This document shows, piece after piece, positions 4,686-42,929 of a DNA stretch of 64,000 nt. A program made the position numbers and the translations under genes. The stretch covers positions 62,001-126,000 of the forward strand of contig CALAGN010000041.1 in the NCBI GenBank assembly GCA_937891785.1, read 5' to 3'. Within the stretch, counting starts at the first letter, position 1. Each line of letters opens with the position of its first letter. Source of the DNA: an uncultured Octadecabacter sp. GTDB lineage: Bacteria; Pseudomonadota; Alphaproteobacteria; Rhodobacterales; Rhodobacteraceae. The notes under the pieces were generated by a model that did not search any database, had not been told where the DNA came from, and saw nothing but the letters and a program-made list of their open reading frames with translations.

Positions 4686-4847
4686 CTAATCCTGCGCTGG
4701 TTCGTCGTCATAGTCCGTTCGTAAGATGCGCGCGCTGTCACCGTCGGGATCATCATATTGGTTCGACTTGAGCGTCCAAAAGAACGCAGCAAGGCCAACG
4801 CCCCCAAGGATAAGACTGATCGGGATAAGGTAGCTCAGGACTTCCAT
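4686..4847 (-). CDS. ccoS: Cytochrome cbb3 oxidase assembly protein CcoS
   Basis: A 53-residue ORF reading MEVLSYLIPISLILGG at the start, with one membrane helix, the FFWTLKSNQYDD segment typical of CcoS, and an acidic tail. In Rhodobacter CcoS is required for inserting the cofactors of cbb3 oxidase. The start codon overlaps the ccoI stop (TGATG), pointing to translational coupling. It is the last gene of ccoGHIS and is easily missed because of its size. Confidence 0.92.
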   Translation of the reverse strand: MEVLSYLIPISLILGGVGLAAFFWTLKSNQYDDPDGDSARILRTDYDDEPAQD

Positions 4848-7036
4848 CAGCGGGTCCGTAACGCATTGAGCGAGACCACAATAGAGCTGGTGGACATAGC
4901 AATCGCAGCTGCAAGCGGTGTAGCAAAGCCAAAGACGGCTATTGGCACGGCGATGCTGTTATAAAGTGCAGCAACAGCAAAGTTTTCCAAAATGCGTCCG
5001 CGCGCGGACCGCCCGATACGCAATGCATCCGAGATATGCGAAAGATCGGGCGAAACCAGCACCACATCGGCGGCAACACGCGCGGCCGCGAGGGCCGACG
5101 CGGGTGCGATGGACACGTGTGCCAGTGCAAGTGCTGCGGTATCGTTCAATCCGTCGCCAACCATCAACACACGTTTGCCAGCGGCTTGGCGTTCCTCAAG
5201 CACGGCGGCTTTTTCGGTCGGCAACACGCCTGCGCGCCAGTTTTCAATGCCAAGATCATTTGCAAGCCTGCGGACAGGTTCCTGCGCATCACCGGACAAA
5301 AGCATGATCGAAACGCCGCGTTTGCGCAGAGCATCCATAAGATCGTGCGCGCCTTCGCGCAGGGTATCGACAAATGCGAACGACACAGGTGCGGTGCCTT
5401 CAATCGCGAATTGGGTCGCGCCGGACTCGTCGTTGCCACTGACCCACACAGCGCGGCCAAGCCGGACAACCTTGCCGTTCAGCTTTCCTTGGACGCCAAG
5501 GCCGGGGTGTTCGACGATATCGCTTACTGCGACATCCGGCAGGCCACGTCCACGCGCCGCCGCAACGATGGAGGCGGACCGCGGGTGCGAGGATGCATCG
5601 GCAAGTGCGGTGGCAATCGCAAACGCTTGTTCAGGGATCGTGTCAGGATCAAGCAGTTCCGGCGTGCCTTTTGTCAGTGTGCCGGTCTTGTCAAAGATGA
5701 CTTCGTCCACTTCAGCCAGCCGTTCAAGCGCCGTCGCATGTTTGACCAGAAGCCCGTTGCTGAACATCCGCCCTGACGCCACAGTAGACACCGCAGGCAC
5801 AGCAAGACCCAGCGCACAGGGGCAGGTGATGATCAGCACGGCCACAGCGACATTTAGAGCAACGCGCACGTCCCCGCCCGTCAGCCACAGCCACAGGAGA
5901 AAGGCCGCAAGCGCCAACAAATGTACCGCGGGTGCATAGATGCGCGCGGCACGATCAGCGAGTGAGTTATATTTGGACTTCGCATCTTCGGCGACGGACA
6001 CCATATCGGCAAGACTGTGCAGTAGCGTGTCTTGGCCAACGGCGTCGGCACGTACCAACAGCGGGCCTGTCAGGTTCACTTCGCCCGCGCGCACCGCTGC
6101 ACCAATCGTCACGGCGACGGGATCGGTTTCACCAGTCAGGAAAGCGCGATCAAGTTCGCTTGCGCCTTCGGACACGGTGCCGTCAACGGGGACGCGCCCG
6201 CCAGGACGCACCATCAGAGTGTCACCGACGGCAATGGCCGTTAGCGCCACGGTTTCGGCCACACCGTTTACCATGCGCAAGGCAGTAGGCGATTCAAGGG
6301 CGGCCAGTTCAGCCGCCGCTGATCGTGCCACGGTGCGCATCTTTTGATCCAGATAACGCCCCGCCAGCAGGAAAAATGTCAGCGATAGTGCGGCATCGAA
6401 ATAGGCGTGTTCGCCATGGTTCATCGTTTCAAACAGCGACATGCCTGACGCCAGTAAGATTGCCAGTGAAATTGGCACGTCCATGTTCAGGCGATACGCC
6501 TTGAGGGCCGACCAAGCATTCCAAAAGAACGGCTGCGCAGAAAAGGCGATTGTCGGCAGGGCGATCATCGCGGAAATCCAGTGGAACAGGTCGCGGGTGG
6601 CATCGGTTGCCCCCGACCAGACCGCCACGGACAACAACATCACGTTCATCATCGCAAAGCCAGATACGCCAAGGCGCATCAGCAAATCGCGCGCCGCAAG
6701 ATCGCTTGTGCCTGCCGATAACGTGGCGCTGTCTAATGGCTGTGCTTGGAACCCCATCGCAGACAAGGCCGCCGTCAAATCTGCCGCCTCAAGCCCCTCG
6801 GCTACATGCACGGTTGCGCGCTTGCGGGTCAGGTTCACCCGCACATCGTTGACGCCCTCAAGCGACATCAATCCGCGTTCGACACCCGATATGCAGCTCG
6901 CACAATGGATCGACGGCAAGGATAGCTGAATCTCGGTGCCAATCGTCTCGGCCCGCTTAAGGGCGCGTGCACTCATCACAGGTGCCGCAAGGCATCCGGG
7001 ACAGGCGGCAGCACCGGGGGTTTCGCTGATTGTCAT
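4847..7036 (-). CDS. ccoI: Copper-translocating P1B-type ATPase CcoI (FixI)
   Basis: CcoI moves copper across the inner membrane for the CuB site of cbb3 oxidase. The 729-residue protein has an N-terminal CPGC (~12-15), an HMA-like domain with HCASC (Cys45, Cys48), the CPC transmembrane ion site (ITCPCALGLAVP), the phosphorylation motif DKTGTLTKG, and GDGLNDTAALA of the hinge. The soluble N-terminus is Cys-rich as in FixI. It starts 9 bases after the ccoH stop and overlaps ccoS by one base. Confidence 0.96.
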   Translation of the reverse strand: MTISETPGAAACPGCLAAPVMSARALKRAETIGTEIQLSLPSIHCASCISGVERGLMSLEGVNDVRVNLTRKRATVHVAEGLEAADLTAALSAMGFQAQPLDSATLSAGTSDLAARDLLMRLGVSGFAMMNVMLLSVAVWSGATDATRDLFHWISAMIALPTIAFSAQPFFWNAWSALKAYRLNMDVPISLAILLASGMSLFETMNHGEHAYFDAALSLTFFLLAGRYLDQKMRTVARSAAAELAALESPTALRMVNGVAETVALTAIAVGDTLMVRPGGRVPVDGTVSEGASELDRAFLTGETDPVAVTIGAAVRAGEVNLTGPLLVRADAVGQDTLLHSLADMVSVAEDAKSKYNSLADRAARIYAPAVHLLALAAFLLWLWLTGGDVRVALNVAVAVLIITCPCALGLAVPAVSTVASGRMFSNGLLVKHATALERLAEVDEVIFDKTGTLTKGTPELLDPDTIPEQAFAIATALADASSHPRSASIVAAARGRGLPDVAVSDIVEHPGLGVQGKLNGKVVRLGRAVWVSGNDESGATQFAIEGTAPVSFAFVDTLREGAHDLMDALRKRGVSIMLLSGDAQEPVRRLANDLGIENWRAGVLPTEKAAVLEERQAAGKRVLMVGDGLNDTAALALAHVSIAPASALAAARVAADVVLVSPDLSHISDALRIGRSARGRILENFAVAALYNSIAVPIAVFGFATPLAAAIAMSTSSIVVSLNALRTR

Positions 7037-7500: not shown

Positions 7501-8934
7501 TCAGTTCCCCTTTCCGTTAAAGATTGTATCCTGATGGGACCGATCGCCACTTTCAAGGTCTTCGACCCAGAAACGGATATCTGTGCGTTCGGCTGCAGAG
7601 GCTGCTTCACCACGGCCTGACATCACATAAACGCGGACCAGCGTGGTTTCGTCTGCCGCGACGGTAACGATAGTGTCAGAGGCTTCTTCGCCTTCCACTT
7701 CAACACGCAGCACGGCATCGGATGTCGCGGTAATCTCGAATTCGCGCATATCACCATACATGTTGCGCAGGCGAATGTCGTAGGCATTGCGAATACTACC
7801 GTCAGACAGGGTTACGAACTGCGGATTGCGCACTGGCGCGACCGTCATGTCGATCTCGGACCGGATGAACAGCGCGAATAGCAGGCCAAAGCCGACCAAC
7901 GACCACAGGACCGTATAAAGGATCGTGCGAGGCCGGAAGACGTGTTTCCAAACTGGCAACGGTGCGCCGCCAGCGCGTTCGACAGGCTCGTCTTTGAGGG
8001 CAAAGTAGTCGACCAATCCGCGTGGCTTGCCAGTCTTGGCCATGATGTCATCACAGGCGTCGATACAAAGGCCACAGGTGATACATTCCATCTGCTGGCC
8101 GTCACGGATGTCGATCCCCATCGGACAGACATTCACGCAGGCCATGCAGTCAATGCAATCGCCCATCGGTTCGCCTGATTGCACGGCGTCGGAATCCTTG
8201 CGGGGTTCACCTCGCCATTCGCGATAACCGATTGTGATGGTGTCTTCGTCCATCATAGCAGCCTGAATACGTGGCCAAGGGCAGGCATAGATGCAAACCT
8301 GTTCGCGCGCGATCCCACCGAAAAAGACGGTCGCTAACGCAAGAATAGCCATGGTTGTGTAGGCTGCGGGATGCGCCGTGCCATTTAACAAACCGACTGC
8401 AAGCGTTGGTGCGTCGGTGAAGTAGAACACCCATGCGCCACCAGTCGAGAGGCCAATGATCACCCAGATGAACCATTTTGACAGCCGTAGCCGCCATTTT
8501 TTGAGATCCCACTTTGATTTCCACAAACGGACCCGCGCATTGCGGTCACCTTCAAGCCAGCGCTCGGTTGCGATGAAAAGATCGGTCCAAACGGTCTGCG
8601 GGCAGGTATATCCGCACCAGACGCGGCCCAGTGCCGATGTGAACAAGAACAGACCCAGACCTGCCATAATCAAAAGGCCGGCGATGAAGTAAAATTCATG
8701 CGGCCAAATCTCGATCCAGAAGAAAAAGAACCGGCGATTCGCAAGATCAATCAATACGGCCTGATCAGGCAAGGCAGGCCCACGGTCCCAGCGAATCCAT
8801 GGAGTGATATAGTAGACCCCAAGCGTGGCCAGCATGATCAGCCACTTCAATGAACGAAACGTCCCCTTCACCTTGCGGGGAAAAACGGGTTCGCGTGCTT
8901 CGTATAGGGAAGGTGGGGTCTCTGACGAGCTCAT
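7501..8934 (-). CDS. ccoG: Cytochrome c oxidase accessory protein CcoG
   Basis: CcoG is a membrane iron-sulphur protein reported to reduce Cu(II) during cbb3 maturation. The 477-residue product has several membrane segments, the CGYTCPQTVW and CPWPRIQ motifs, and a double 4Fe-4S region (CIDCMACVNVCPMGIDI followed by ECITCGLCIDACD). An Ig-like periplasmic C-terminal domain follows. It is the first gene of the ccoGHIS unit and has an FNR box 65 bases upstream. Confidence 0.96.
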   Translation of the reverse strand: MSSSETPPSLYEAREPVFPRKVKGTFRSLKWLIMLATLGVYYITPWIRWDRGPALPDQAVLIDLANRRFFFFWIEIWPHEFYFIAGLLIMAGLGLFLFTSALGRVWCGYTCPQTVWTDLFIATERWLEGDRNARVRLWKSKWDLKKWRLRLSKWFIWVIIGLSTGGAWVFYFTDAPTLAVGLLNGTAHPAAYTTMAILALATVFFGGIAREQVCIYACPWPRIQAAMMDEDTITIGYREWRGEPRKDSDAVQSGEPMGDCIDCMACVNVCPMGIDIRDGQQMECITCGLCIDACDDIMAKTGKPRGLVDYFALKDEPVERAGGAPLPVWKHVFRPRTILYTVLWSLVGFGLLFALFIRSEIDMTVAPVRNPQFVTLSDGSIRNAYDIRLRNMYGDMREFEITATSDAVLRVEVEGEEASDTIVTVAADETTLVRVYVMSGRGEAASAAERTDIRFWVEDLESGDRSHQDTIFNGKGN

Positions 8935-8998
8935 ATCTGGGTATCCTGAAACATCTGTTCGCTGTGATGTCTATGCGGCCACCCATGCTGCAACTGCA

Positions 8999-9012
8999 TT
9001 GATATGGATCAA
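8999..9012 (-). promoter_or_regulatory. FNR box upstream of ccoG
   Basis: TTGATATGGATCAA is a perfect match to the FNR consensus TTGAT-N4-ATCAA. Its centre is 71 bases before the ccoG start codon, which would allow a class II activator position with a leader of about 30 bases. fnrL lies 5 kb away in the same window. The ccoGHIS operon is therefore probably induced at low oxygen separately from ccoNOQP. Confidence 0.85.
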
Positions 9013-9045
9013 GAAGGTATGCCGCATCCCCAAATTTAAACCTAC

Positions 9046-9086
9046 CAAAGAAAAACCCCCGAAAGGCGCAAGCCTCTCGGGGGTTT
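9046..9086 (-). terminator. Rho-independent terminator of ccoNOQP
   Basis: On the minus strand AAACCCCCGAGAGGCT pairs with GCCTTTCGGGGGTTT and is followed by TTTTTCTTTGG. One arm is at 9053-9067 and the other at 9071-9086. It lies about 75 bases after the ccoP stop and before the ccoG promoter, separating the two cco operons. Confidence 0.85.
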
Positions 9087-9088
9087 GG

Positions 9089-9122
9089 GACCCTGCGTTA
9101 AGTGCGAACAGACCGCAGGGTC
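9089..9122. repeat. Inverted repeat between ccoP and its terminator
   Basis: GACCCTGCG (9089-9097) and CGCAGGGTC (9114-9122) form a perfect 9-bp stem with a 16-base loop, immediately upstream (in ccoP transcription) of the terminator hairpin. It could stabilise the 3' end of the ccoNOQP message. No poly-T follows it, so it is not itself a clear terminator. Confidence 0.6.
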
Positions 9123-9161
9123 GTTATCTGTCAGGGCCGCTGCAAGGCCCGGGCAGAATTC

Positions 9162-10046
9162 TTATTCGCCGCCACCAAGCTGGTGAACATAAGCGGCTAC
9201 CGCATTGATTTCGGCCTGATCAAGGCCGCTACCGACGCGATATTCGGCGGACCATGCGGGCATCACGCCAAAGCGGGCATAACGGACCGTTTCAGTAATG
9301 GTGGCTTCGTCGCCGCCATAAAGCCAGATCGCGTCCGTCAAGGTTGGCGCGCCTAGGGCGTCCATGCCTTCACCGGCATCGCCATGACAGGCTGCGCAGT
9401 TGTCATAAAAGACGGTCGCGCCCAGTTCTGCCGCTGCAGGATCGTGGTCTTGGCCGGAAATCGCGAGAACGTGATTGACCACGCCGGTGATTTCTTCGTC
9501 GGTCAGGATCTCGTCAAAGGCAGTCATTTCCGAATAGCGCGAGTCGAGTGACTGTTCGTTGCGCACACCGTGGGTCACCGTATAGACGATGTCCTCGATT
9601 GTGCCGCCCCAAAGCCAGTCATCATCCAGCAGGTTAGGAAAACCTGTCGTACCAGCCGCACCAGACCCGTGACATTGCGAACAGTTGGCGCGGAAGATTG
9701 CGCCGCCGCCGTTGACTGCAAAACCATGCAGTTCAGCGTCGTCCGTAATTGTGGTCAGATCAACTGCAGCAAGTTTGGCTATCAGTTCAGCGTTTGCGGC
9801 ATCTACAGCGGCGATGTCTTCTGCCACTTCGGCGCGTGTGGAATAACCCAGCAAGCCAGGTGTTGCGCCTTTGATCATAGGCCATGCCGGATAGGCGATG
9901 GTGTATAGAATCGCCCAGACGATTGTCGCGTAAAGGCACCAGACCCACCACTTTGGAAGGGGGTTGTTGAATTCCTCAATCCCGTCCCAGCTGTGGCCAG
10001 TCGTTTCGACTTCGTCTTGCTTTTTGTTGTCTTGTTTCTTGCTCAT
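9162..10046 (-). CDS. ccoP: cbb3 cytochrome c oxidase subunit III (dihaem cytochrome CcoP)
   Basis: CcoP is a membrane-anchored dihaem c-type cytochrome that passes electrons to CcoO/CcoN. The 294-residue protein shows the family's N-terminus (GHSWDGIEEFNNPLPKWW then a membrane helix) and two haem c motifs, CSQCH and CAACH, each in a cytochrome c domain with a downstream Met ligand region. The start codon overlaps the ccoQ stop (ATGA). Confidence 0.97.
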   Translation of the reverse strand: MSKKQDNKKQDEVETTGHSWDGIEEFNNPLPKWWVWCLYATIVWAILYTIAYPAWPMIKGATPGLLGYSTRAEVAEDIAAVDAANAELIAKLAAVDLTTITDDAELHGFAVNGGGAIFRANCSQCHGSGAAGTTGFPNLLDDDWLWGGTIEDIVYTVTHGVRNEQSLDSRYSEMTAFDEILTDEEITGVVNHVLAISGQDHDPAAAELGATVFYDNCAACHGDAGEGMDALGAPTLTDAIWLYGGDEATITETVRYARFGVMPAWSAEYRVGSGLDQAEINAVAAYVHQLGGGE

Positions 10047-10237
10047 GACTGACCCTCCGGGTCGCTAGTGCTGCTGTCAGCGGGGGCATCTTCGTGCCGG
10101 AAAGGCAAGTTCGCGGCGTCATTGTGCAGCTTGCGGCTGCCCGGACGGAACGCAAAAAAGATAACTCCCATGAAGAAGACGAACAGGGCAAGAAGCACCC
10201 AACTGTCCGCAATCTCGCGCAGGATGTGATAGTCCAT
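10043..10237 (-). CDS. ccoQ: cbb3 oxidase small subunit CcoQ
   Basis: A 64-residue protein with a single membrane helix (SWVLLALFVFFMGVIFFAF) followed by the basic/polar FRPGSRKLHNDAANLPF tail typical of CcoQ/FixQ. CcoQ stabilises the assembled oxidase, notably in oxygen. It sits between ccoO (11-base gap) and ccoP (4-base overlap). Confidence 0.95.
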   Translation of the reverse strand: MDYHILREIADSWVLLALFVFFMGVIFFAFRPGSRKLHNDAANLPFRHEDAPADSSTSDPEGQS

Positions 10238-10248
10238 CTGATCTCCTC

Positions 10249-10974
10249 CTAGCGGCTAGCGTCTGGCGTGAAGGTCGAGAAATCGACCAACGTGCCAAGC
10301 ATCTGAAGGTAAGCGACCATCGCATCCATTTCGCTGACGCCCGGTTGGCCGTCAAAGTTGCGCACCTGCGCATTTGGATAGCGTTCCAGCAGGCCATCGA
10401 AGTCGCCGAACGGGTCAATTTGCACCATAAAGTCGGCACTTGCTGACGCGATCATCTCTTCTGTGTAGGGCACGCCAACCATGGCATGTGTGCTCAACAG
10501 ATCTTCGATGTAGGTCGGCTCGATCAGTCTTTGGGTGAGGTAGCCATAAGGCGGCATCACCGATTCCGGCACGACAGACTGTGGATCAGTCAGGTGTGCA
10601 ACGAGCCATTCATCCGAATACCGGCCACCGACGCGGGCAAGGTCAGGCCCTGTCCGCTTGGAGCCCCACTGGAATGGATGGTCATACATCGATTCCGCAG
10701 CCAGCGAGTAGTGGCCGTAACGTTCGACTTCGTCGCGCATCGGGCGGATCATCTGACTGTGACAGACGTAGCAACCCTCACGGATATAGATTTCCCGTCC
10801 AGTGAGCTCCAGCGGGGAGTAGGGGCGCATGCCCTCTACTTTCTCGATGGTGTTCTCCAGATAGAAAAGCGGTGCGATTTCGACGATACCACCGACGGTG
10901 ACAACCACAAAGCTGGCTGCCAACAATAAGGTCGCGTTCTTTTCAAGAACCTTGTGACGATCAAGGAAAGCCAT
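10249..10974 (-). CDS. ccoO: cbb3 cytochrome c oxidase subunit II (monohaem cytochrome CcoO)
   Basis: The 241-residue protein has an N-terminal membrane anchor and one haem c site, CYVCHS, followed by the conserved stretch from [14 protein letters not shown] to [20 protein letters not shown]. It forms the core oxidase with CcoN. The gene starts 12 bases after the ccoN stop. Confidence 0.97.
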
Positions 10975-10986
10975 GTTCTTTGCTCC

Positions 10987-12579
10987 TTATTCTGCTGGTG
11001 CGGTGACGATTGCGGCAGACTTTTTGCCGAATGCTGTCATCCACAGGTTATAGGTCATGATCAGTGCGCCGGTGAGATACATAAGCCCGCCAATGCCGCG
11101 AACCACATACATCGGGAACTTGGCGGATACGGTGTCGGCAAAGGAGTTCACGAGGAAGCCCTGTGCGTCAACTTCACGCCACATCAGACCTTCCATGATC
11201 CCCGTGACCCACATTGAGGCCGCGTAGAGGATGATGCCGATAGTCGCGAGCCAGAAGTGCCAGCTGACAAGTGTCAGGCTATAAAGGCGCTGCTTGTTCC
11301 ACAGTTTCGGCGTCAGGAAGTAGAGCGCCGAGAATGTGATCATGCCGTTCCAGCCAAGCGCACCCGAGTGAACGTGACCGATGGTCCAGTCAGTGTAGTG
11401 CGACAGCGAGTTCACCGCGCGGATCGACATCATCGGACCCTCGAATGTGGACATACCGTAAAAGCCCAACGAAATAACCATCATACGGATGATAGGATCG
11501 GTGCGGATCTTGTCCCAAGCGCCGTTCAGCGTCATAAGACCGTTGATCATACCACCCCAACTGGGCATCCAAAGAACGATCGAGAAGACCATGCCAAGTG
11601 TGCCAGCCCAGTCGGGCAGCGCGGTGTAGTGCAAGTGGTGTGGACCAGCCCAGATATAAAGAAAGATCAGTGCCCAGAAGTGGATGATCGACAGTTTATA
11701 TGAGAACACAGGCTTTTCGGCCTGCTTGGGCACAAAGTAATACATCATCCCAAGGAAGCCGGCTGTGAGGAAGAAGCCCACGGCGTTGTGGCCGTACCAC
11801 CACTGCGTCATGGCATCCTGAACACCCGAGAATACACTTACAGAACGCGAGCCAAGGAACGACACCGGAATGGCGAGGTTGTTGACAACGTGCAGCATGG
11901 CGACAGTGACGATGAACGACAGGAAGAACCAGTTGGCCACATAGATGTGCGGCTCTTTGCGCTTCATGATCGTGCCAAGGAAGACGATCAGATAAGCGAC
12001 CCAGACGACGGTCAACCAAAGGTCAACATACCATTCCGGTTCGGCGTATTCGCGCGATTGTGTGGAACCCATCAGGTAACCGGTCGCAGCAAGCACGATA
12101 AACAGTTGATAGCCCCAGAAAACGAACCATGCTGTGTTTCCGCCAAATAGGCGCGCGGCGCTTGTGCGCTGAACCACATAGAAGGATGTCGCGATCAACG
12201 CGTTACCACCAAAGGCAAAGATAACCGCCGACGTATGCAACGGACGCATGCGTCCGAAGTTTCCATAGCCTTGCAGGAAATCGAAATTCAGTTGCGGGAA
12301 AGCCAGCTGGAAGGCGATCCAGACTCCGACCAGAAAGCCGGTGACGCCCCAAAAGGTTGTTGCGATAACACCGGCACGGATGACACCATCCATATATCCG
12401 GTTTCAACGGGGCCTTTTTCGTCCCCTGCTTTTCTGACTGACCAAATAAACAGCCCGGCCGCGACGGCCATGACGATCAGTGCGTGGATTTGATAAGCCA
12501 AATCCCTCGCCCAGTTCGCCGCCAAAGCTGCGCCAAGGGCAATAACCCCAAATAGCGCAATCTTGATCCAATCCCACAT
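10987..12579 (-). CDS. ccoN: cbb3 cytochrome c oxidase subunit I (CcoN)
   Basis: CcoN is the catalytic haem-copper subunit that reduces oxygen and pumps protons. The frame is open to 12741, but the ATG at 12579 gives [23 protein letters not shown], the usual alphaproteobacterial start, preceded by GAAGGGA; this gives 530 residues. About twelve or more membrane helices are seen. [13 protein letters not shown] holds active-site His residues, and [12 protein letters not shown] the late haem-ligand helix. A FNR box lies 92 bases upstream of the chosen start. Confidence 0.97.
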
Positions 12580-12670
12580 GACATGCGTTCCCTTCGTTTG
12601 CCGCACACGGATTCGTGAGCGACTTTTTTTCTTATGTTTTGGCGTTTCCCATTTCAAGGAGCGGGTCGCC

Positions 12671-12684
12671 TTGATCCATGTCAA
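12671..12684 (-). promoter_or_regulatory. FNR box upstream of ccoN
   Basis: TTGATCCATGTCAA matches TTGAT-N4-GTCAA, a form used by alphaproteobacterial FnrL sites. Its centre is 98 bases before the ccoN start codon in the divergent ccoN/uspA intergenic region. It most likely activates ccoNOQP at low oxygen. Confidence 0.82.
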
Positions 12685-12702
12685 GTTTTCCCAGCGTACA
12701 TT

Positions 12703-12716
12703 TTGATAGGACTCAA
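12703..12716 (+). promoter_or_regulatory. Second FNR-like box in front of the universal stress gene
   Basis: TTGATAGGACTCAA matches the FNR consensus TTGAT-N4-ATCAA at 9 of the 10 defined bases. Its centre is 68 bases before the start of the universal stress gene and 32 bases from the centre of the stronger ccoN box. It may serve the rightward promoter, or both. Confidence 0.55.
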
Positions 12717-12776
12717 AAGCGGCAGGTTCCTGCCCTGCCAACCTAGGTGGAACATTTGCCTGAAAGAGGATTGGTC

Positions 12777-18774: not shown

Positions 18775-18884
18775 CCGCTGAGTTGTGTCGCGATACGCTC
18801 TTTTAATTGCCGCCTCGCCAAGGATTGCACTTTGGCCTGCGTCACATTCCTATGACATCGTTAACGCACCTTAAGGAGTATCCC

Positions 18885-20534
18885 GTGTTGCGCCCGATTC
18901 TCGCTTCCAGCCTCATCGCCCTTCTTGCCGCCGCGCCCGCGTTGGCCGACACGTTCGAGGCCCCCGCCGATATCACCGCCGTGACGATCTATCCCCAAGG
19001 TGCAACCGTCGTGCGGCAAGTCATCTTCGATGTGCCCGCAGGCACCCACGAGGTCATCGTGCCCGGTCTGCCCGCAAACACCATCGCCGAAGCCCTGCGC
19101 GTGACGCCCTCGGATGGCGTGCGGATCGGAGCGCTGTCATTGGCAAAGGGGCGGCAACCCGTGACCGACGACACCCCCAGCGATGCTGTCGTGGCTGCGA
19201 CAGCCGAGGTTGAACGCCTTGAGCAAGTCCTGCGCGACCACGACACCGCCATTTCCATGATCCGCTTGGCGGTCATGGCCGCTGAAGAACAAGTCGCGTT
19301 CTTGCGGGGACTAAGCAATCAAGATGGTCTGGCAGCCACATCCCCCGACGACATCCGCGCACTGGCGCAGCTTGTTGGCTCTGAAACCTTCGCTGCACGC
19401 CAGTCAGCGCTTGAAGCCGAAGTTGAAGCCCAAGCCGCGTTGCGTGACCGCGCCGATGATGGCGAATTGTTGGACAGGGCGCGCCAGGCTCTTGCCGCGC
19501 TAACAGCCCCTGTCAATCAGGGTGCGGTGCTGAGCCTGACCGTGCAAACTCAAACAGACGGCCCTGTCACCTTGGATATTTCCACCATCGTCGGCGATGC
19601 CTACTGGCGGCCAACTTATGACCTACGTCTGACGCGCGGCGACACCCCGACGCTGGACATTGATCGCAACGTGCTGGTCACCCAAAACAGTGGTGAAGAT
19701 TGGGACGGCGTTGCGCTAACCCTGTCCACGGCCCGTCCGGGCGGGCAAAGCCAAGCGGGAGAGGTCTACGGCATACGCCGCCAGATCGTGAGCGAGGAAG
19801 ATCTACAGAGGGATCGCGCGCAGGCAGCTGATAGCTATGGTGGCCTTATGGCTGCGCCGCAGATGGAGGTGTCACCAGTCGTAGTTCTGCAAGAAGCCGG
19901 CATGTACACCAACCTGATGGGGGCAAACGTGACCTATACTTACGGCGGCGAAGTCACGATCCGTAATGGTGTCGATGATTTGCGCCTGACGCTGGATACG
20001 CAAACCGTGACGCCGGATGTTTGGGCTGCCGCCGCGCCGATGGGTGACGACAGCGCCTATATGGTCGCTGAACTGGTCAACACCACGGGCGAAGTTTTGC
20101 TTCCCGGTGATGCGCTGCTGATCGCTGATGGTAGCCTTGTCGGATATACGCAACTACCCCTGATCGCAGCCGGTGATGACACCAAAATTGGCTTTGGCGT
20201 GATCGACGGCATCAGGTTGAACCGCATCGTGCCTGACCGGACCGAAGGCGATATTGGCGTGCTATCGCGCAGCAATCAACAGACAGAAACGGTTGTTATG
20301 ACGGTCGAAAACCTAACGGGCGAAGACTGGCCCATCCGCCTGCGTGATCGCATTTATTATTCCGATCAGGACGATCTGGTCGTGGAATACACCGCGAGCC
20401 TGCCGGTGAGCGAGCAAGACCCCGACGGGCGGCGCGGCGTGTTGGAGTGGCAGTTTGATTTGGCGGCAGGTGCTAAGCAGGAAATCCGCCTTGAGCATAG
20501 CCTGACTTGGCCAACAGGCTATGTGCTGCGATAG
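18885..20534 (+). CDS. Secreted DUF4139 domain protein (MuiA-like)
   Basis: A GTG at 18885 follows AAGGAG with a 6-base gap and yields a clean signal peptide ending AAAPALA, so it is preferred to the earlier start at 18807. The mature protein has an N-terminal beta domain (ITAVTIYPQGATVVRQVIFDVPAG), a helical coiled-coil middle (~95-190), and the C-terminal DUF4139 beta domain with DAYWRPTYDLRLTRG. It ends LEHSLTWPTGYVLR. The family, including MuiA of Streptomyces/Pseudomonas-type annotations, has no settled biochemical role. Confidence 0.82.
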   Translation: MLRPILASSLIALLAAAPALADTFEAPADITAVTIYPQGATVVRQVIFDVPAGTHEVIVPGLPANTIAEALRVTPSDGVRIGALSLAKGRQPVTDDTPSDAVVAATAEVERLEQVLRDHDTAISMIRLAVMAAEEQVAFLRGLSNQDGLAATSPDDIRALAQLVGSETFAARQSALEAEVEAQAALRDRADDGELLDRARQALAALTAPVNQGAVLSLTVQTQTDGPVTLDISTIVGDAYWRPTYDLRLTRGDTPTLDIDRNVLVTQNSGEDWDGVALTLSTARPGGQSQAGEVYGIRRQIVSEEDLQRDRAQAADSYGGLMAAPQMEVSPVVVLQEAGMYTNLMGANVTYTYGGEVTIRNGVDDLRLTLDTQTVTPDVWAAAAPMGDDSAYMVAELVNTTGEVLLPGDALLIADGSLVGYTQLPLIAAGDDTKIGFGVIDGIRLNRIVPDRTEGDIGVLSRSNQQTETVVMTVENLTGEDWPIRLRDRIYYSDQDDLVVEYTASLPVSEQDPDGRRGVLEWQFDLAAGAKQEIRLEHSLTWPTGYVLR

Positions 20535-20578: not shown

Positions 20579-20887
20579 CTAGAATCGTTCTGCCCGCAGC
20601 ACTTCGCAATCGCTGACTGTGACAACGCCCATGTGCCGTTCAACGACTTTGAACGCGGCCTCAAGCAGAGTATCAAGCCGTTCAGGCCGGATGATACAGA
20701 CGACTTGCATCATACCGGAACGGCCAACCTGACCTTCGCGTGTCCATTGCCCCGAGCGGCCAGACCCTCCGAGAACGGGCAAGATTGAATAGCCCTGCAC
20801 GCCCGCTTCGGTCAGAGCATTGGTTAAACGGCGCTCCATCGGTGCTTCGATGATGATCGCCACACGTTTTGCCTTGTGCGTTTCCAT
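20579..20887 (-). CDS. PII-like signalling protein of the SbtB type
   Basis: A 102-residue PII-fold protein with a beta-alpha-beta start (KRVAIIIEAPMERRLTNALTEAGVQGYSIL), a glycine-rich T-loop with GGSGRSGQWTREGQVG, and a second repeat ending VERHMGVVTVSDCEVLRAERF. The start overlaps the SbtA stop by one base (TAATG). In cyanobacteria SbtB binds SbtA and senses adenine nucleotides. The C-terminal disulphide loop of some SbtB proteins is absent here. It is not a GlnB/GlnK, as the canonical uridylylation loop is missing. Confidence 0.82.
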   Translation of the reverse strand: METHKAKRVAIIIEAPMERRLTNALTEAGVQGYSILPVLGGSGRSGQWTREGQVGRSGMMQVVCIIRPERLDTLLEAAFKVVERHMGVVTVSDCEVLRAERF

Positions 20888-21870
20888 TAGTTGACCCCCA
20901 CGATTGCGCTGGCCACCGCAACATACAGCGGGATGCCAATGGTAAGATTGAACGGAAATGTGACGCCCAGCGATAGCGTCAGATAGATCGACGGGTTCGC
21001 TTCGGGCAGGGCCACGCGCATGGCCGCCGGAACGGCGATGTAGCTTGCCGATGCAGACAGCACCATCATCAGCGCGACACCCCCCGCGGACAGCCCGATC
21101 AACAATCCAAAGCCAAGCCCGATCGTGCTGCCAATCAGTGGCATCAGAACTGCGAATGCCACGGTTGCCATACTTATCTGGCCACGCACTTCCCGCAGGC
21201 CCCGACCCGCGACAAGCCCCATATCAAGCAAGAACAGGCACAACACACCCGTAAACGGCGCAACGATAAAGCTGGCGATCTTTTCCAACCCGTCTTGTCC
21301 GGTGATTGCGCCAATCGCAAATGAACCCACCAAAAGAACAATGGACCCGTTCAACATAATTTCGCGCAGAAGGGTCGCGTCCATCCGACCACCATCTGGC
21401 GCACCACGTGCAACCAGCCACAGGGCAGAAAGGATCGCGGGGGCCTCCATCATGGCAGCAACAGCAACCATGTATCCTTCGGAATCAATCAGACGGCTTT
21501 CCAGCACGGACGTCGCCGCGACAAATGTCACGATTGATATCGACCCGTAGTGGGCCGCGACCGCGGCGGCATCAAGCCGGTTCAGGTTTGTCATCACACG
21601 CAAAAGGCCAAAGGCGATGAACGGCAGGAAGAAAGAAAGCACAACGCCCGCCCCAAGGCTGGCAATCAATCGGGCGTCAACACCGTGGGCGGCGACGCTC
21701 GCCCCGCCCTTAAAGCCGATTGCAAACAGCAGATATAGCGAAAGCGTTTTTGCCGCCGCCTCGGGTACGGAAAGGTCTGATCGGGCAAGTGCAGCAGCGA
21801 CACCAAGAACAAAAAACAAAATCACAGGAGAAAGCAGGTTCGTGGTGGCAAGGTCGAAGATATCGGCCAT
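20887..21870 (-). CDS. sbtA: SbtA-type sodium-dependent bicarbonate transporter
   Basis: The 327-residue protein has about ten hydrophobic segments. It begins LLSPVILFFVLGVAAALARSDLSVPEAAAKTLSLYLLFAIGFKGG, with SVAAHG further on, the family signature. Central AAHYGSISIVTFVAA and the second-half repeat match SbtA. SbtA imports bicarbonate with sodium. Here it lies between a carbonic anhydrase gene (56-base gap) and an SbtB-type gene (1-base overlap), which supports an inorganic-carbon role. Confidence 0.88.
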   Translation of the reverse strand: MADIFDLATTNLLSPVILFFVLGVAAALARSDLSVPEAAAKTLSLYLLFAIGFKGGASVAAHGVDARLIASLGAGVVLSFFLPFIAFGLLRVMTNLNRLDAAAVAAHYGSISIVTFVAATSVLESRLIDSEGYMVAVAAMMEAPAILSALWLVARGAPDGGRMDATLLREIMLNGSIVLLVGSFAIGAITGQDGLEKIASFIVAPFTGVLCLFLLDMGLVAGRGLREVRGQISMATVAFAVLMPLIGSTIGLGFGLLIGLSAGGVALMMVLSASASYIAVPAAMRVALPEANPSIYLTLSLGVTFPFNLTIGIPLYVAVASAIVGVN

Positions 21871-21926
21871 GTCAAAATCCCTTACTGGACTTAGAGTAAT
21901 TAGAGCGAAAGTGACCCAAGGAAAGG

Positions 21927-22574
21927 CTAGACTGTCACAAAACCTGCCGAAGCCGGATCATAAGCCTCGAGTGTGCCTTCGCCGATGTCGGTCCACATGC
22001 CATGGAGCGATAGCATTCCGTCTTCAAATGCCGCTTGCACGAATGGAAACGTCATCAGGTTTTCAAGTGATACCAAAACGGATTGCTTTTCCAGCTCACG
22101 CAGACGGGTGCTGTCGTCGCCTTTCTCCAGTCGTTCAAAACCAGGGCGCAGAATATCCATCCACCGGCCTACAAAGCTTGTCGATTTTTCCAACTCGGGG
22201 GCAAGACCGCTGCACATTTCGTAACATCCCTGCACGCCACCGCAATTGGAGTGACCGAGCACGATCAGATGCGCAACCTTTAACGTGGTTACCGCATATT
22301 CGATCGCGGCAGATGTGCCGTGGTGATCGCCGTCTGGCAGGTATTGAGGGACAAGGTTTGCGATATTGCGGTGAATAAAGAACTCTCCCTGATCCGCTCC
22401 GAAAATCGACGTTACATGCACGCGGCTGTCACAACATGACACGATCATCGCACGCGGGCGCTGGCCCATTTCGGCAAGGTGGCGATACCAACTGCGGTTA
22501 TCCTCGAACGAGGTGGCTTTCCAGCCGTGGTAGCGTTTAATCAGGTAATCGGGGAGTGGTTTGGCGTGGCGCAT
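21927..22574 (-). CDS. Beta-class carbonic anhydrase
   Basis: The enzyme interconverts CO2 and bicarbonate. Zinc ligands are visible as C47-x-D49-x-R51 (SCCDSRV) and H108-x2-C111 (GHSNCGG), with the FIHRNIANL strand between them. The ATG at 22574 is preferred to a GTG four codons upstream because GAGAG lies 5 bases before it. At 215 residues it fits the family. It is the first gene of the carbonic anhydrase-SbtA-SbtB operon. Confidence 0.94.
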   Translation of the reverse strand: MRHAKPLPDYLIKRYHGWKATSFEDNRSWYRHLAEMGQRPRAMIVSCCDSRVHVTSIFGADQGEFFIHRNIANLVPQYLPDGDHHGTSAAIEYAVTTLKVAHLIVLGHSNCGGVQGCYEMCSGLAPELEKSTSFVGRWMDILRPGFERLEKGDDSTRLRELEKQSVLVSLENLMTFPFVQAAFEDGMLSLHGMWTDIGEGTLEAYDPASAGFVTV

Positions 22575-22684
22575 TTGAACTCTCACTGGTTTGCGCCCTA
22601 AATAGGCTGAATTTTCGGGAATTTCGAGAGATTTCTGCGGCGCGCATCAACCGATTGGGAACCATCACGGCATATGAGGGTGAT

Positions 22685-38892: not shown

Positions 38893-40160
38893 CCGTTTTC
38901 GCGCAGGACATGTCCTGCAAGGTAAAGCGAGCCGCAGATAAGAATGCGCGCGTAGGGGTCATCGGCAGTGATCGCCACCAGCGCGCTGTCAAGGCTATCG
39001 GCCACCTGCGCCTGCATCCCTACGTCGCGTGCAGCCTTGGCCGTCACATCAGCGGGCAGGGTGTTCGCCTCGCCGGGTATCGAGACGGCAGTCAGGCTTT
39101 GCGCGACCTTGGCAAGGGGTGCAAGATAGCCAGTGATATCCTTGGTATTCAGCATCCCGCAAACCAAATGCGTGGGACGTTCCGGCAGGGCCGCCAGTGT
39201 CCGCGCCAACATTACACCCGCCGCTGGATTGTGCCCACCATCCAGCCACAGATTGGCCAGATGAAAGCGCTCTACGATCCGGCCTTGCGTCAGGTGCTGC
39301 ATCCGGGCTGGCCAGAACACATTGACCATCGCCGCTTCGCAGGCTGCTTCGTCACACCCTAACTGACGCAATGCGGCAATCGCCGCCCCGGCATTTGTGA
39401 TTTGGTGCGGACCGAGCAGGGTTGGCAGGGGTAGGTCCAACAGGCCGGTTTCATCTTGGTAGATCAGCCGTCCGCGTTCTTCATTCACATGCCAGTGTTG
39501 TCCGTAGACCAGTAGCGGCGCGCCAAGACGCGCGGCGCGCGCTTCAATCACATCCAAAGCCGCATCATGCTGCGGGCCCACGACACAAGGCACACCACGC
39601 TTGATGATCCCTGCCTTTTCGCCCGCAATCTCGGGCAGCGTGTCACCTAGAAATTGCTGGTGATCCAGATCGACGGGCGTGATTACCGTCAAAGCGGGCG
39701 TATCAATCACATTGGTCGCATCCAAACGCCCGCCGAGACCAACCTCAAGCAGGGTGTAATCCGCAGGCGTGCGTGCAAAGGCCAGTAGGGCCGCCGCCGT
39801 GGTAATTTCAAAATAGGTGATGTTGCCGCCGTCGTTGGCGCCATAGCATTCATCCAGAACGCGGGTCAGGTGATCCTCAGAAATCAGATCACCGGCAAGC
39901 CGGATGCGTTCATGAAACCGTGCCAGATGCGGCGAGGTGTAGGCGTGGACGGATTTTCCGGCCCCTTCAAGCCCCGCGCGGATCATCGCTTGGGTGCTGC
40001 CTTTGCCGTTGGTTCCCGCCAGATGGATCACGGGGGGCAGGCTGTCTTGTGGATTGCCAAGTGCCACGAGCAGGCGCCACACACGATCAAGTGTCAGGTC
40101 GATCACCTTGGGATGCAGCGCCATCATCCGTTCCAGAACGACATCAGAGCCGGTTGTCAC
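38889..40160 (-). CDS. folC: Folylpolyglutamate synthase / dihydrofolate synthase
   Basis: Adds glutamate to dihydropteroate and to folates. The 423-residue Mur-ligase-like protein has the P-loop [15 protein letters not shown], then [28 protein letters not shown] and the C-terminal [11 protein letters not shown]. It overlaps accD by ATGA. The accD-folC order is common in proteobacteria. Confidence 0.96.
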
Positions 40161-41074
40161 TCTTTTGCGTCCTTGGTAGGTGCGGCTTCGGCTTCGGGTG
40201 CCGGAAGTTCACCCGATATCACAGTGCCAAGGCCCAGCAGCATCCGCGCGATCGTGATCAACTCGTCACGCATGTCGGTTCGCGGCGTGACGCGGTCCAG
40301 CATCCCGTGATCAAGCAGATATTCGGCACGCTGGAATCCTTCGGGCAGTTTTTCGCGGATCGTCTGTTCAATCACGCGCGGACCCGCAAAACAAATCAGC
40401 GCATTGGGCTCGGCGATATGCACATCACCCAGCATCGCGTATGATGCCGTGACGCCGCCCGTAGTCGGGTGGGTCAGAACGACGATATAGGGCAGGCCCG
40501 CTTCTTTCAGCATCTCCACGGCAATCGTGGTACGCGGCATCTGCATCAGCGCCAAAATGCCTTCTTGCATGCGCGCGCCACCAGCGGCGGAAAATAGTAT
40601 CAGGGGGCATTTTTTCATTACCGCGCGTTCGGCGGCGGCAATGATCGCATTGCCCACATACATCGACATCGATCCGCCCATGAAGGAAAAGTCCTGCGCG
40701 GCGGCCACGATCGGCGTGCGCCCAATCTCGCCCTCGCCCACCAGCATCGCATCTTTTTCGCCAGTGTTTTTCTGCGAGGCTTTCATCCGGTCGGGATAGC
40801 GCTTCTGATCGCGAAAATGCAGCGGGTCGGCGGTGGGTTCCGGCACCTCCACTTCGGTAAAGATGCCGCCGTCGAACAGGGCCGCAAAACGGTCGCGCGG
40901 GGAGATATACATATGGTGCCCGCAATTGGTGCAGACGTTCAGATTGTTCGACAGTTCGCGGTGAAACAGCATCGTCCCGCATTCATCGCATTTTGACCAC
41001 AGATTTTCCGGCACCTCGCGGCGTGAAAATATCGAGTTGATCCGGGGACGGACGTAGTTGGAAATCCAGTTCAT
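40157..41074 (-). CDS. accD: Acetyl-CoA carboxylase carboxyltransferase subunit beta
   Basis: AccD with AccA transfers the carboxyl group from biotin to acetyl-CoA, making malonyl-CoA. The 305-residue protein has an N-terminal zinc ribbon (CDEC...CTNC) and the crotonase-like core with [19 protein letters not shown] and [15 protein letters not shown]. The ATG at 41074 gives [10 protein letters not shown], the family start; the frame is open to 41224. It is divergent from ilvD. Confidence 0.97.
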
Positions 41075-41195
41075 AGGGCCCTCGCGCTTTGAATATCCGA
41101 AATAGGACGGGCAGCGGGGAAATGCAATCAGCCGCTTGTGGTGGTCGCGGCGGTCTCTTAGACCTTTGCCAACAGTTTTTGCGAAGGAACACACC

Positions 41196-42929
41196 ATGTC
41201 AGCCGGACGAATCGATAAATCCAAACTCCCAAGCCGTTATGTAACCGAAGGACCGTCCCGCGCGCCGCACCGCAGCTATATGTATGCGATGGGTGTCAGC
41301 GAGGAAGAAATCCACCAGCCGCTGATCGGCGTGGCTACCTGCTGGAACGAAGCAGCGCCCTGCAACATCTCGCTGAACCGTCAGGCGCAAGCGGTGAAAA
41401 TGGGTGTGAAACACGCCAATGGCACCCCGCGCGAATTTACCACGATCACTGTGACGGACGGGATCGCGATGGGCCACGAAGGCATGCGATCATCATTGGC
41501 TTCGCGCGAAGCGATTGCCGACAGTGTCGAACTGACAATGCGCGGCCACTGCTATGACGGTCTGGTCGGCCTTGCGGGCTGCGACAAATCCCTTCCGGGC
41601 ATGATGATGGCGATGGTGCGTTTGAACGTGCCTTCAGTGTTTATCTATGGCGGTTCGATCCTTCCGGGGCGATTGAACGGCAAAGACGTCACCGTGCAGG
41701 ATGTGTTCGAGGCCGTGGGTCAGCACCAAGCTGGCAATATGACCGACGCCGAGCTGGAAATTCTGGAACGGGTGGCCTGCCCAACGTCGGGCGCTTGTGG
41801 TGGCCAGTTTACCGCCAACACGATGGCCTGCGTGTCCGAAGCAATCGGCCTTGCCTTGCTAAATTCCTCCGGTGCGCCTGCACCTTACGAAAGCCGCGAC
41901 CAGTATGGTGTGGCATCCGGTGATGCGGTCATGAACCTGCTGCACAAAAACATCCGCGCCCGCGATGTTGTCACCCGCAAGTCGCTTGAAAACGCTGCGC
42001 GCGTCGTGGCCTGCACAGGTGGATCAACGAACGCAGGACTGCATCTGCCCGCCATCGCCCACGAGGCCGGCATTGATTTTGACCTGTTCGATGTTTGTGA
42101 CATCTTTCGCGACACGCCCTATTTCGTTGATCTGAAACCGGGCGGCCAATACGTGGCCAAAGACCTTTACGAAGTCGGCGGCGTGCCTGTCGTCTTGAAA
42201 GAACTGCGCAAGGCCGGTCTGATCCATGAGGATTGCATCACCGCTAGCGGCGAAACCATCGGCGAAGCGCTTGATAAAATCACAGGGGAAGCTGACGGAA
42301 AAGTCATCTATTCCGTGCAGAACCCGATCACACCAACAGGCGGTGTTGTTGGCCTACGCGGAAATCTTGCCCCTGACGGCGCGATCGTCAAAGTGGCGGG
42401 AATGACGGCTGAACAGCAGGTCTTTTCCGGCCCCGCGCGCGTGTTCGAATGCGAAGAAGACGCGTTTGAGGCTGTGAAAAAGCGTGAATACAAAGAAGGC
42501 GAAGTGCTGGTCATTCGTAACGAAGGCCCCGCAGGCGGCCCCGGAATGCGTGAAATGCTATCGACTACTGCGGCGCTGTCCGGTCAGGGCATGGGCAAGA
42601 AGGTCGCGCTGATTACCGATGGACGGTTCAGCGGCGCGACCCGTGGTTTCTGCGTCGGCCATGTTGGCCCCGAAGCCGCGCACGGTGGTCCGATTGCTAT
42701 GCTGAAAGACGGTGACATCATCACGCTTAACGCAATTACAGGCGAGTTGAACGTCGATCTGACAGACGCCGAATTGGAAGCACGCAAAGCCGATTGGAAA
42801 GGCCCGCGCGAAACGATCTACACCAGCGGTGCGGTCTGGAAATTCGCAAAACTCGTCGGCTCGACCCGCTTGGGTGCGGTGACCCATCCCGGTGCAAAGG
42901 AAGAACGCCACATCTATATGGACCTGTAA
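41196..42929 (+). CDS. ilvD: Dihydroxy-acid dehydratase
   Basis: IlvD dehydrates dihydroxy acids in isoleucine, valine and pantothenate synthesis using an iron-sulphur cluster. The 577-residue protein has [15 protein letters not shown] and [22 protein letters not shown] with cluster Cys residues, and the C-terminal [22 protein letters not shown]. The ATG at 41196 follows GAAGGA; the frame is open to 41136. Its length is that of the long-form family. Confidence 0.97.

Follow-up and report, generated by a model that had tools for sequence, protein, structure and literature searches.

A carbonic anhydrase gene next to genes for an SbtA-related permease and a CPII-like protein in an alphaproteobacterial genome without a Rubisco match

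The permease SbtA is a bicarbonate importer (PMC4275256). Its HCO3- site is described as comprising Ser114, Tyr140, Ser324 and Ser327, and main-chain Na+ ligands are described at Phe110 and Ala112 (PMC8352866). Its PII-type partner, SbtB, can end in a CGPxGC loop, although according to the same source this loop is conserved in some SbtB homologs only (PMC8352866). A further PII-like protein, CPII, is called carboxysome-associated in the title of its paper, and the titles of its PDB entries name ADP, AMP and bicarbonate as its bound ligands. The transporter and carbonic anhydrase (CA) genes of autotrophs have been surveyed, and for autotrophs it has been argued that an importer together with a cytoplasmic CA carries a risk of leakage (PMC10880623). 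The family is also known from other settings: two IIIa.3 and six LD12 SAR11 genomes carry an SBT permease (PMC10030771), and a Marivivens genome paper places the permease among carboxylate transporters (PMC11278965). That many heterotrophic bacteria possess SbtA-like proteins is already known (PMC10117731), as is the use of an inorganic-carbon system, MpsAB, in a non-autotroph (PMC6689103).

The window (the whole stretch of DNA analysed, 64,000 nucleotides from an uncultured Octadecabacter sp.) contains three genes in succession on the minus strand, spanning positions 20579-22574. On the basis of open reading frames and Pfam matches they encode, in this order, a beta-CA, a permease of the Sbt_1 family and a PII-like protein. 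The CA gene (21927..22574; Pro_CA, E 2e-43) has 1ddz and 1ekj as its best PDB sequence matches, and its product carries the motifs CCDSR and GHSNCGG, which correspond to the Cys-x-Asp-Ser-Arg and His-x-x-Cys of beta-CAs; the start at 22574 is an ATG, with an alternative in-frame GTG at 22586. The permease gene (20887..21870; 327 aa; PF05982, E 9e-116) follows after 56 bp (21871-21926), and its stop codon shares base 20887 with the start codon of the gene for the PII-like protein (20579..20887; 102 aa; P-II, E 2e-15) in the sequence TAATG. The succession of genes and the one-base overlap agree with the description in an earlier note on this DNA. No NCBIfam family was returned for the permease or the PII-like protein. 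A search around the operon gave no sigma-70-like promoter, against 1.8 expected from shuffled sequence, and the four terminator-like sites (2.9 expected) all lie inside genes. Convergent with the operon is a plus-strand gene for a MuiA-family (mucoidy inhibitor) protein with DUF4139 and DUF4140 (18807-20534). Elsewhere in the window are an ordinary minus-strand cbb3 oxidase cluster (COX1, FixO, FixP and FixG-like; 7501-12741) and, near it, a heavy-metal P-type ATPase (4847-7036).

The same three genes stand in the same order on a single strand in another genome of the genus (G480, locus L126). Relatives were compared further in two sets: the best 80 named loci out of 577 confirmed, a set weighted towards Rhodobacterales and taken with up to 6 kb of flanking sequence, and the best 30 loci of a class sample, with 1.5-kb flanks. 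A PII gene lies directly downstream of the permease in 77 of the best 80 named loci; in L092 a distance of 370 bp separates it from the matched part, and L097 and L108 showed none. The same holds for 27 of the best 30 class loci, with no PII gene found in L012, L022 and L034. Given the copy of the whole trio in the same genus and the permease-PII order in so many named relatives, the arrangement is not due to chance.

The permease resembles SbtA in fold. Its predicted model has a mean pLDDT of 89.5, and in a Foldseek search the top five rows were the five SbtA entries, at TM values of 0.74-0.86. These matches, together with the identical Pfam families and permease-PII gene order, are what would be expected of a genuine cyanobacterial-type SbtA/SbtB pair, as which the earlier note had read the two genes. 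The phylogeny gives a different picture. Trees were built with FastTree, with local support values, and included one cyanobacterial SbtA (assembled from two PDB alignment pieces), two SbtBs and 22 of the 30 class permeases. Synechocystis 6803 SbtA and 12 alphaproteobacterial sequences form a clade (support 1.0) from which the window permease is excluded; it groups instead with 21 further class relatives and the outliers L127, L128, L141 and L144 (support 0.94), while L140 and L143 fall outside both clades. The match to the SbtA structure 7cye is correspondingly weaker for the window permease (E 6e-25) than for an SbtA-clade member, L133 (E 4e-106).

Differences were also evident in the presumed substrate pocket. 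All four HCO3--site residues are retained in each of the 12 alphaproteobacterial members of the SbtA clade, whereas the window permease has Ser, Ala, Ser and Ala at these positions. The position of Tyr140 is occupied by Ala, Leu, Val or Met in 110 of 110 loci of the window's kind, its own included, and that of Ser327 by Ala in 108 and Val in one of the 109 readable sequences of the group. Ser114, in contrast, is retained in 110 of 110, and Ser322 and Ser324 each in 109 of 109 readable sequences. The first unwound crossover, HYGSIS (residues 107-112; 21535..21552, minus strand), corresponds to LFGAVS of SbtA, and the second, ASASYIA (residues 273-279; 21034..21054, minus strand), to ASSSDIS. 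Because it lies in a separate clade and the residues at the Tyr140 and Ser327 positions are replaced, we classify the permease from its sequence as a relative of SbtA and not as SbtA.

The PII-like protein leads in the same direction. Its nearest solved structure by sequence is CPII of Thiomonas (E 3e-8), compared with E 3e-3 for the best SbtB, and the PII protein encoded beside the SbtA-clade permease L133 matches SbtB instead (E 6e-22). The first 14 Foldseek rows for the model were CPII. A second fold search (VIA) likewise gave CPII in its first five rows (Z 12.8-13.2), followed by a Thermus PII-like protein (12.3), GlnK1 (12.0) and the best SbtB (11.6), a small margin of about 1 Z unit or less. 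In the tree, a group of nine (support 0.98), made up of two SbtBs, T1_L006 and six PII proteins whose genes adjoin those of SbtA-clade permeases, leaves out the window protein. CPII also falls outside this group, within a 96-row group (0.87); neighbouring nodes are weak (0.2-0.6), and the window protein is only slightly nearer to CPII (distance 3.11) than to the SbtBs (3.33 and 3.56). Thus, the proposal of the earlier note that the two proteins are SbtA and SbtB did not hold for either of them, and a genuine SbtA/SbtB pair seems very improbable. As names for this pair, SbtA and SbtB are contradicted by the phylogeny of both proteins.

The T-loop region of the PII-like protein (residues 38-57; 20717..20776, minus strand) has the pattern GGSGRSGxWxREGQ. 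Among 79 close relatives, the window protein included, Gly41, Gly43, Gly46 and Trp48 are found in all 79 and Arg50 in 76. The model has a lower pLDDT in this region. A comparison with the T-loop of SbtB, suggested in the earlier note, showed the two to be unlike. The C-terminus reads VLRAERF and has no CGPxGC loop. At the more distant class loci the T-loops of the PII proteins vary widely, so a single mode of gating for the whole group is not implied. A scan of viral contigs with the PII-like protein returned 12 stretches fitting a pattern, none of which encodes a relative.

Both predicted kinds of permease can occur in one genome. Sbt_1 matches were present in 77 of 248 genomes of the family, 65 of them with a match of at least 350 bits. 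Eight lower-scoring second copies were fetched from hosts that also have the high-scoring kind; all but L127, namely the seven copies L131-L137, belong to the SbtA clade. L127 and L128 represent a further Sbt_1 subtype with the motifs YGSVS and SASYIDAPAA and with Asp in place of Ser327; the stretches fetched for them showed neither a PII nor a CA gene. The window's own genome has, outside the window, a remnant of a true SbtA gene with internal stops (L125, C44:16158-16526), 3 kb from a contig end. Leaving aside a short overlapping stretch in a different frame, the alignable part covers 101 to 104 of roughly 350 residues; identity to the 13 SbtA-clade members is 53-71% over 66-87 residues, against at most 42% to the other rows shown. 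This genome seems to have lost SbtA and kept the sister-group permease.

The genome as a whole (3.32 Mb in 161 contigs, 99.99% complete) was searched for enzymes of carbon assimilation, as the earlier note had proposed. There was no match to the Rubisco large subunit, to PEP carboxylase or to the photosynthetic reaction centre; the corresponding control searches were positive in 5, 7 and 1 of 14 known genomes. The earlier note had reported no Rubisco gene in the window, and this now extends to the whole genome. Its description of the host as a probable heterotroph is supported by the three negative searches as a probability, not as a proof. Crotonyl-CoA carboxylase/reductase (ccr) was matched at 615 bits, over its cut-off. 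Pyruvate carboxylase had two matches with identical scores and frame lengths on different contigs, C100:5394-5996 and C111:18881-19483, possibly one gene assembled twice. The accD gene noted earlier in the window was confirmed at 40160-41224 by its Carboxyl_trans domain and ACC zinc ribbon. Pyruvate carboxylase and acetyl-CoA carboxylase use HCO3-, and crotonyl-CoA carboxylase/reductase uses CO2. Given these genes, the suggestion that the operon supplies bicarbonate for biosynthetic or anaplerotic carboxylation is plausible.

A sample of 385 alphaproteobacterial genomes was used to examine the relation of the family to Rubisco. Sbt_1 was found in 73 and a Rubisco-family match in 52; both occurred in 7, where about 10 were expected (p = 0.34). 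Rubisco-family matches thus accompany Sbt_1 in 7 of 73 genomes, in three of them only as weak matches (E no better than 4e-21), and occur in 45 of the 312 genomes that lack Sbt_1. In this class sample, Sbt_1 and Rubisco are not associated. The earlier note had considered the occurrence of the pair outside autotrophy to be noteworthy; with 66 of 73 Sbt_1 genomes showing no Rubisco-family match, and in view of the earlier report from heterotrophs (PMC10117731), it is not unusual.

The CA has a distribution of its own. The window CA was matched in 218 of the 248 family genomes, although six of these matches fall short of 1e-60 and might represent different CAs, so that the CA is near-core in the family, unlike the permease. 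In the window's genome the operon CA is the sole PF00484 match. Such figures could mean that the CA is a housekeeping enzyme of the family whose position beside the permease-PII pair is without functional meaning, and in 15 of the 40 genomes that could be judged from the CA places listed (out of the 65 with a match of at least 350 bits), CA and permease do lie apart. However, in 20 of the 40 they are within 200 bp of each other and in 5 more within 3 kb, compared with an estimated 0.2% or so if the position within a 4-Mb genome were random. A same-strand CA gene accompanies 47 of the best 80 named loci, upstream in 36 and downstream in 11, and 33 have no CA beside the pair. The upstream arrangement is found, for example, in Litoreibacter, Sulfitobacter, Tateyamaria and Rhodovulum, in a few cases at several hundred bases; the downstream arrangement occurs in Roseibium, Labrenzia, Thalassospira, Hongsoonwoonella, an alphaproteobacterium and Kiloniella (3.7 kb on). 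Both beta-CA motifs are present in all 51 CA rows beside a permease-PII pair (L049 counted twice). In the CA tree, the 11 downstream CAs form a group of 14 with those of L138, L029 and pea (support 0.95) that contains no upstream CA; the upstream row L049, a 51-residue fragment, lies outside both groups. The CAs behind the pair in Roseibium and Thalassospira are therefore of another lineage, and a meaningless juxtaposition seems improbable to us. Among the best 30 class loci a CA lies within the 1.5-kb flanks in 3, once on the opposite strand, and 27 have none. At L138 (G136) an SbtA-clade permease is immediately preceded by a same-strand CA gene and followed by a convergent PII gene; judged by gene order, linkage to a CA is also found in the SbtA clade. 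Of the genomes of the 47 named loci with a CA, 34 gave no Rubisco-family match and 13 did, 12 of these above the cut-off.

We interpret the trio, with a probability of roughly 0.6, as a module in which a CPII-gated Na+/bicarbonate carrier serves carboxylases in non-autotrophs. Since the carrier-sensor pair is common in relatives without Rubisco, its role is probably to manage bicarbonate for ordinary metabolism. The permease, from the sister group of SbtA within Sbt_1, would use the elevator mechanism that goes with its fold to move bicarbonate together with Na+ over the inner membrane. The PII-like protein, as a relative of CPII, would bind adenine nucleotides and probably bicarbonate, and its T-loop may dock on the permease and close it as inorganic carbon or the energy state demands. 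The CA, presumably cytoplasmic, would equilibrate HCO3- with CO2 and so feed both the users of HCO3- (pyruvate carboxylase, acetyl-CoA carboxylase) and the CO2-using crotonyl-CoA carboxylase/reductase. Substrate, Na+ coupling, direction of import, gating and metabolic purpose are what we infer here; in the openly licensed literature we found no transport measurement for the group of the window permease.

Alternatively, the permease might carry bicarbonate outward or in both directions, or carry another small carboxylate such as formate, and with the CA dispose of respiratory CO2 as HCO3- or steady the internal pH rather than feed carboxylases. A heterotroph would be expected to be a net producer of CO2, and the pocket is unlike that of SbtA at two of four residues. 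In addition, the one experimental study that we found in the openly licensed literature on a probable member of this group, Shewanella SO_3758, deals with formate tolerance: Zymomonas became more tolerant of formate with the wild-type gene, and the authors judged their modelling to fit efflux better (PMC12093963). Because of the altered pocket and this formate work, efflux or a different substrate has to be considered, but the CPII-like regulator and the linkage to CA in two arrangements favour bicarbonate, and SbtA, the nearest characterised relative, is an importer (PMC4275256). On balance we regard this alternative as rather unlikely and prefer the carrier module serving carboxylases. In a bolder extension of that reading, PII-gated inorganic-carbon carriers would come in a second kind besides SbtA/SbtB, to which the trio would belong; this kind would use a CPII-like sensor, be spread across Rubisco-less Alphaproteobacteria and perhaps act as a two-way bicarbonate valve closed at high bicarbonate and ADP. 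We offer this tentatively; if true, the valve would resolve the leak expected from an importer combined with a cytoplasmic CA.

The Pfam name of the family, Na+-dependent bicarbonate transporter superfamily, tempts one to call every member SbtA. Two clades can be separated: members of one have the SbtA pocket, and any neighbouring PII gene that was found encodes an SbtB-like partner; those of the other differ in the pocket, and their partners are CPII-like or divergent. The substrate and sensing of the second clade become a clear experimental question, and the clade offers a Rubisco-free setting for CPII-type regulation. Since Sbt_1 and Rubisco showed no association in the class sample, the family alone calls for caution before carbon concentration or autotrophy is deduced from it. 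In the openly licensed literature we found no report of a CA-Sbt_1-PII operon in Rhodobacteraceae and did not meet the pairing of this permease clade with a CPII-like sensor and CA; CPII and SbtA were named together there only through a reference-list citation of the CPII paper.

Compared with known systems, the window permease has in common with Synechocystis SbtA (Slr1512; PDB 7cye, 7egl, 8zor) its Sbt_1 membership, a fold with two unwound crossovers, the equivalents of Ser114, Ser322 and Ser324, and a PII-type partner gene. It differs in its clade, in having Ala for Tyr140 and Ser327, and in having Tyr for Phe110 and Ser for Ala112. The PII-like protein resembles SbtB (Synechocystis Slr1513; Cyanobium 7001) in its PII fold and Sbt_1 permease partner, but has a different T-loop, no C-terminal CGPxGC loop and a place outside the SbtB group. 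CPII of Thiomonas intermedia (PDB 5d4l, 5d4n-5d4p, 5drk, 5ds7) is its best match by sequence and fold, with His85, Gly87, Asp93 and Arg98 in common; identity is about 30%, however, the T-loops are different, and CPII is carboxysome-associated by title whereas the window protein is encoded in a genome with no Rubisco match. The proteins of MpsAB from Staphylococcus aureus differ from those of the trio. Like the trio, MpsAB is an inorganic-carbon system proposed for anaplerosis in a non-autotroph, and the available part of its description mentions no PII-like partner (PMC6689103). Finally, SO_3758 of Shewanella oneidensis was met only in work on formate tolerance. The residues cited for it, V99-S100, S268-A269-S270 and I272, agree with the crossover motifs V/I-S and S-A-S-x-I and fit I111-S112, S274-A275-S276 and I278 of the window permease; by this motif agreement SO_3758 probably belongs to the same group.
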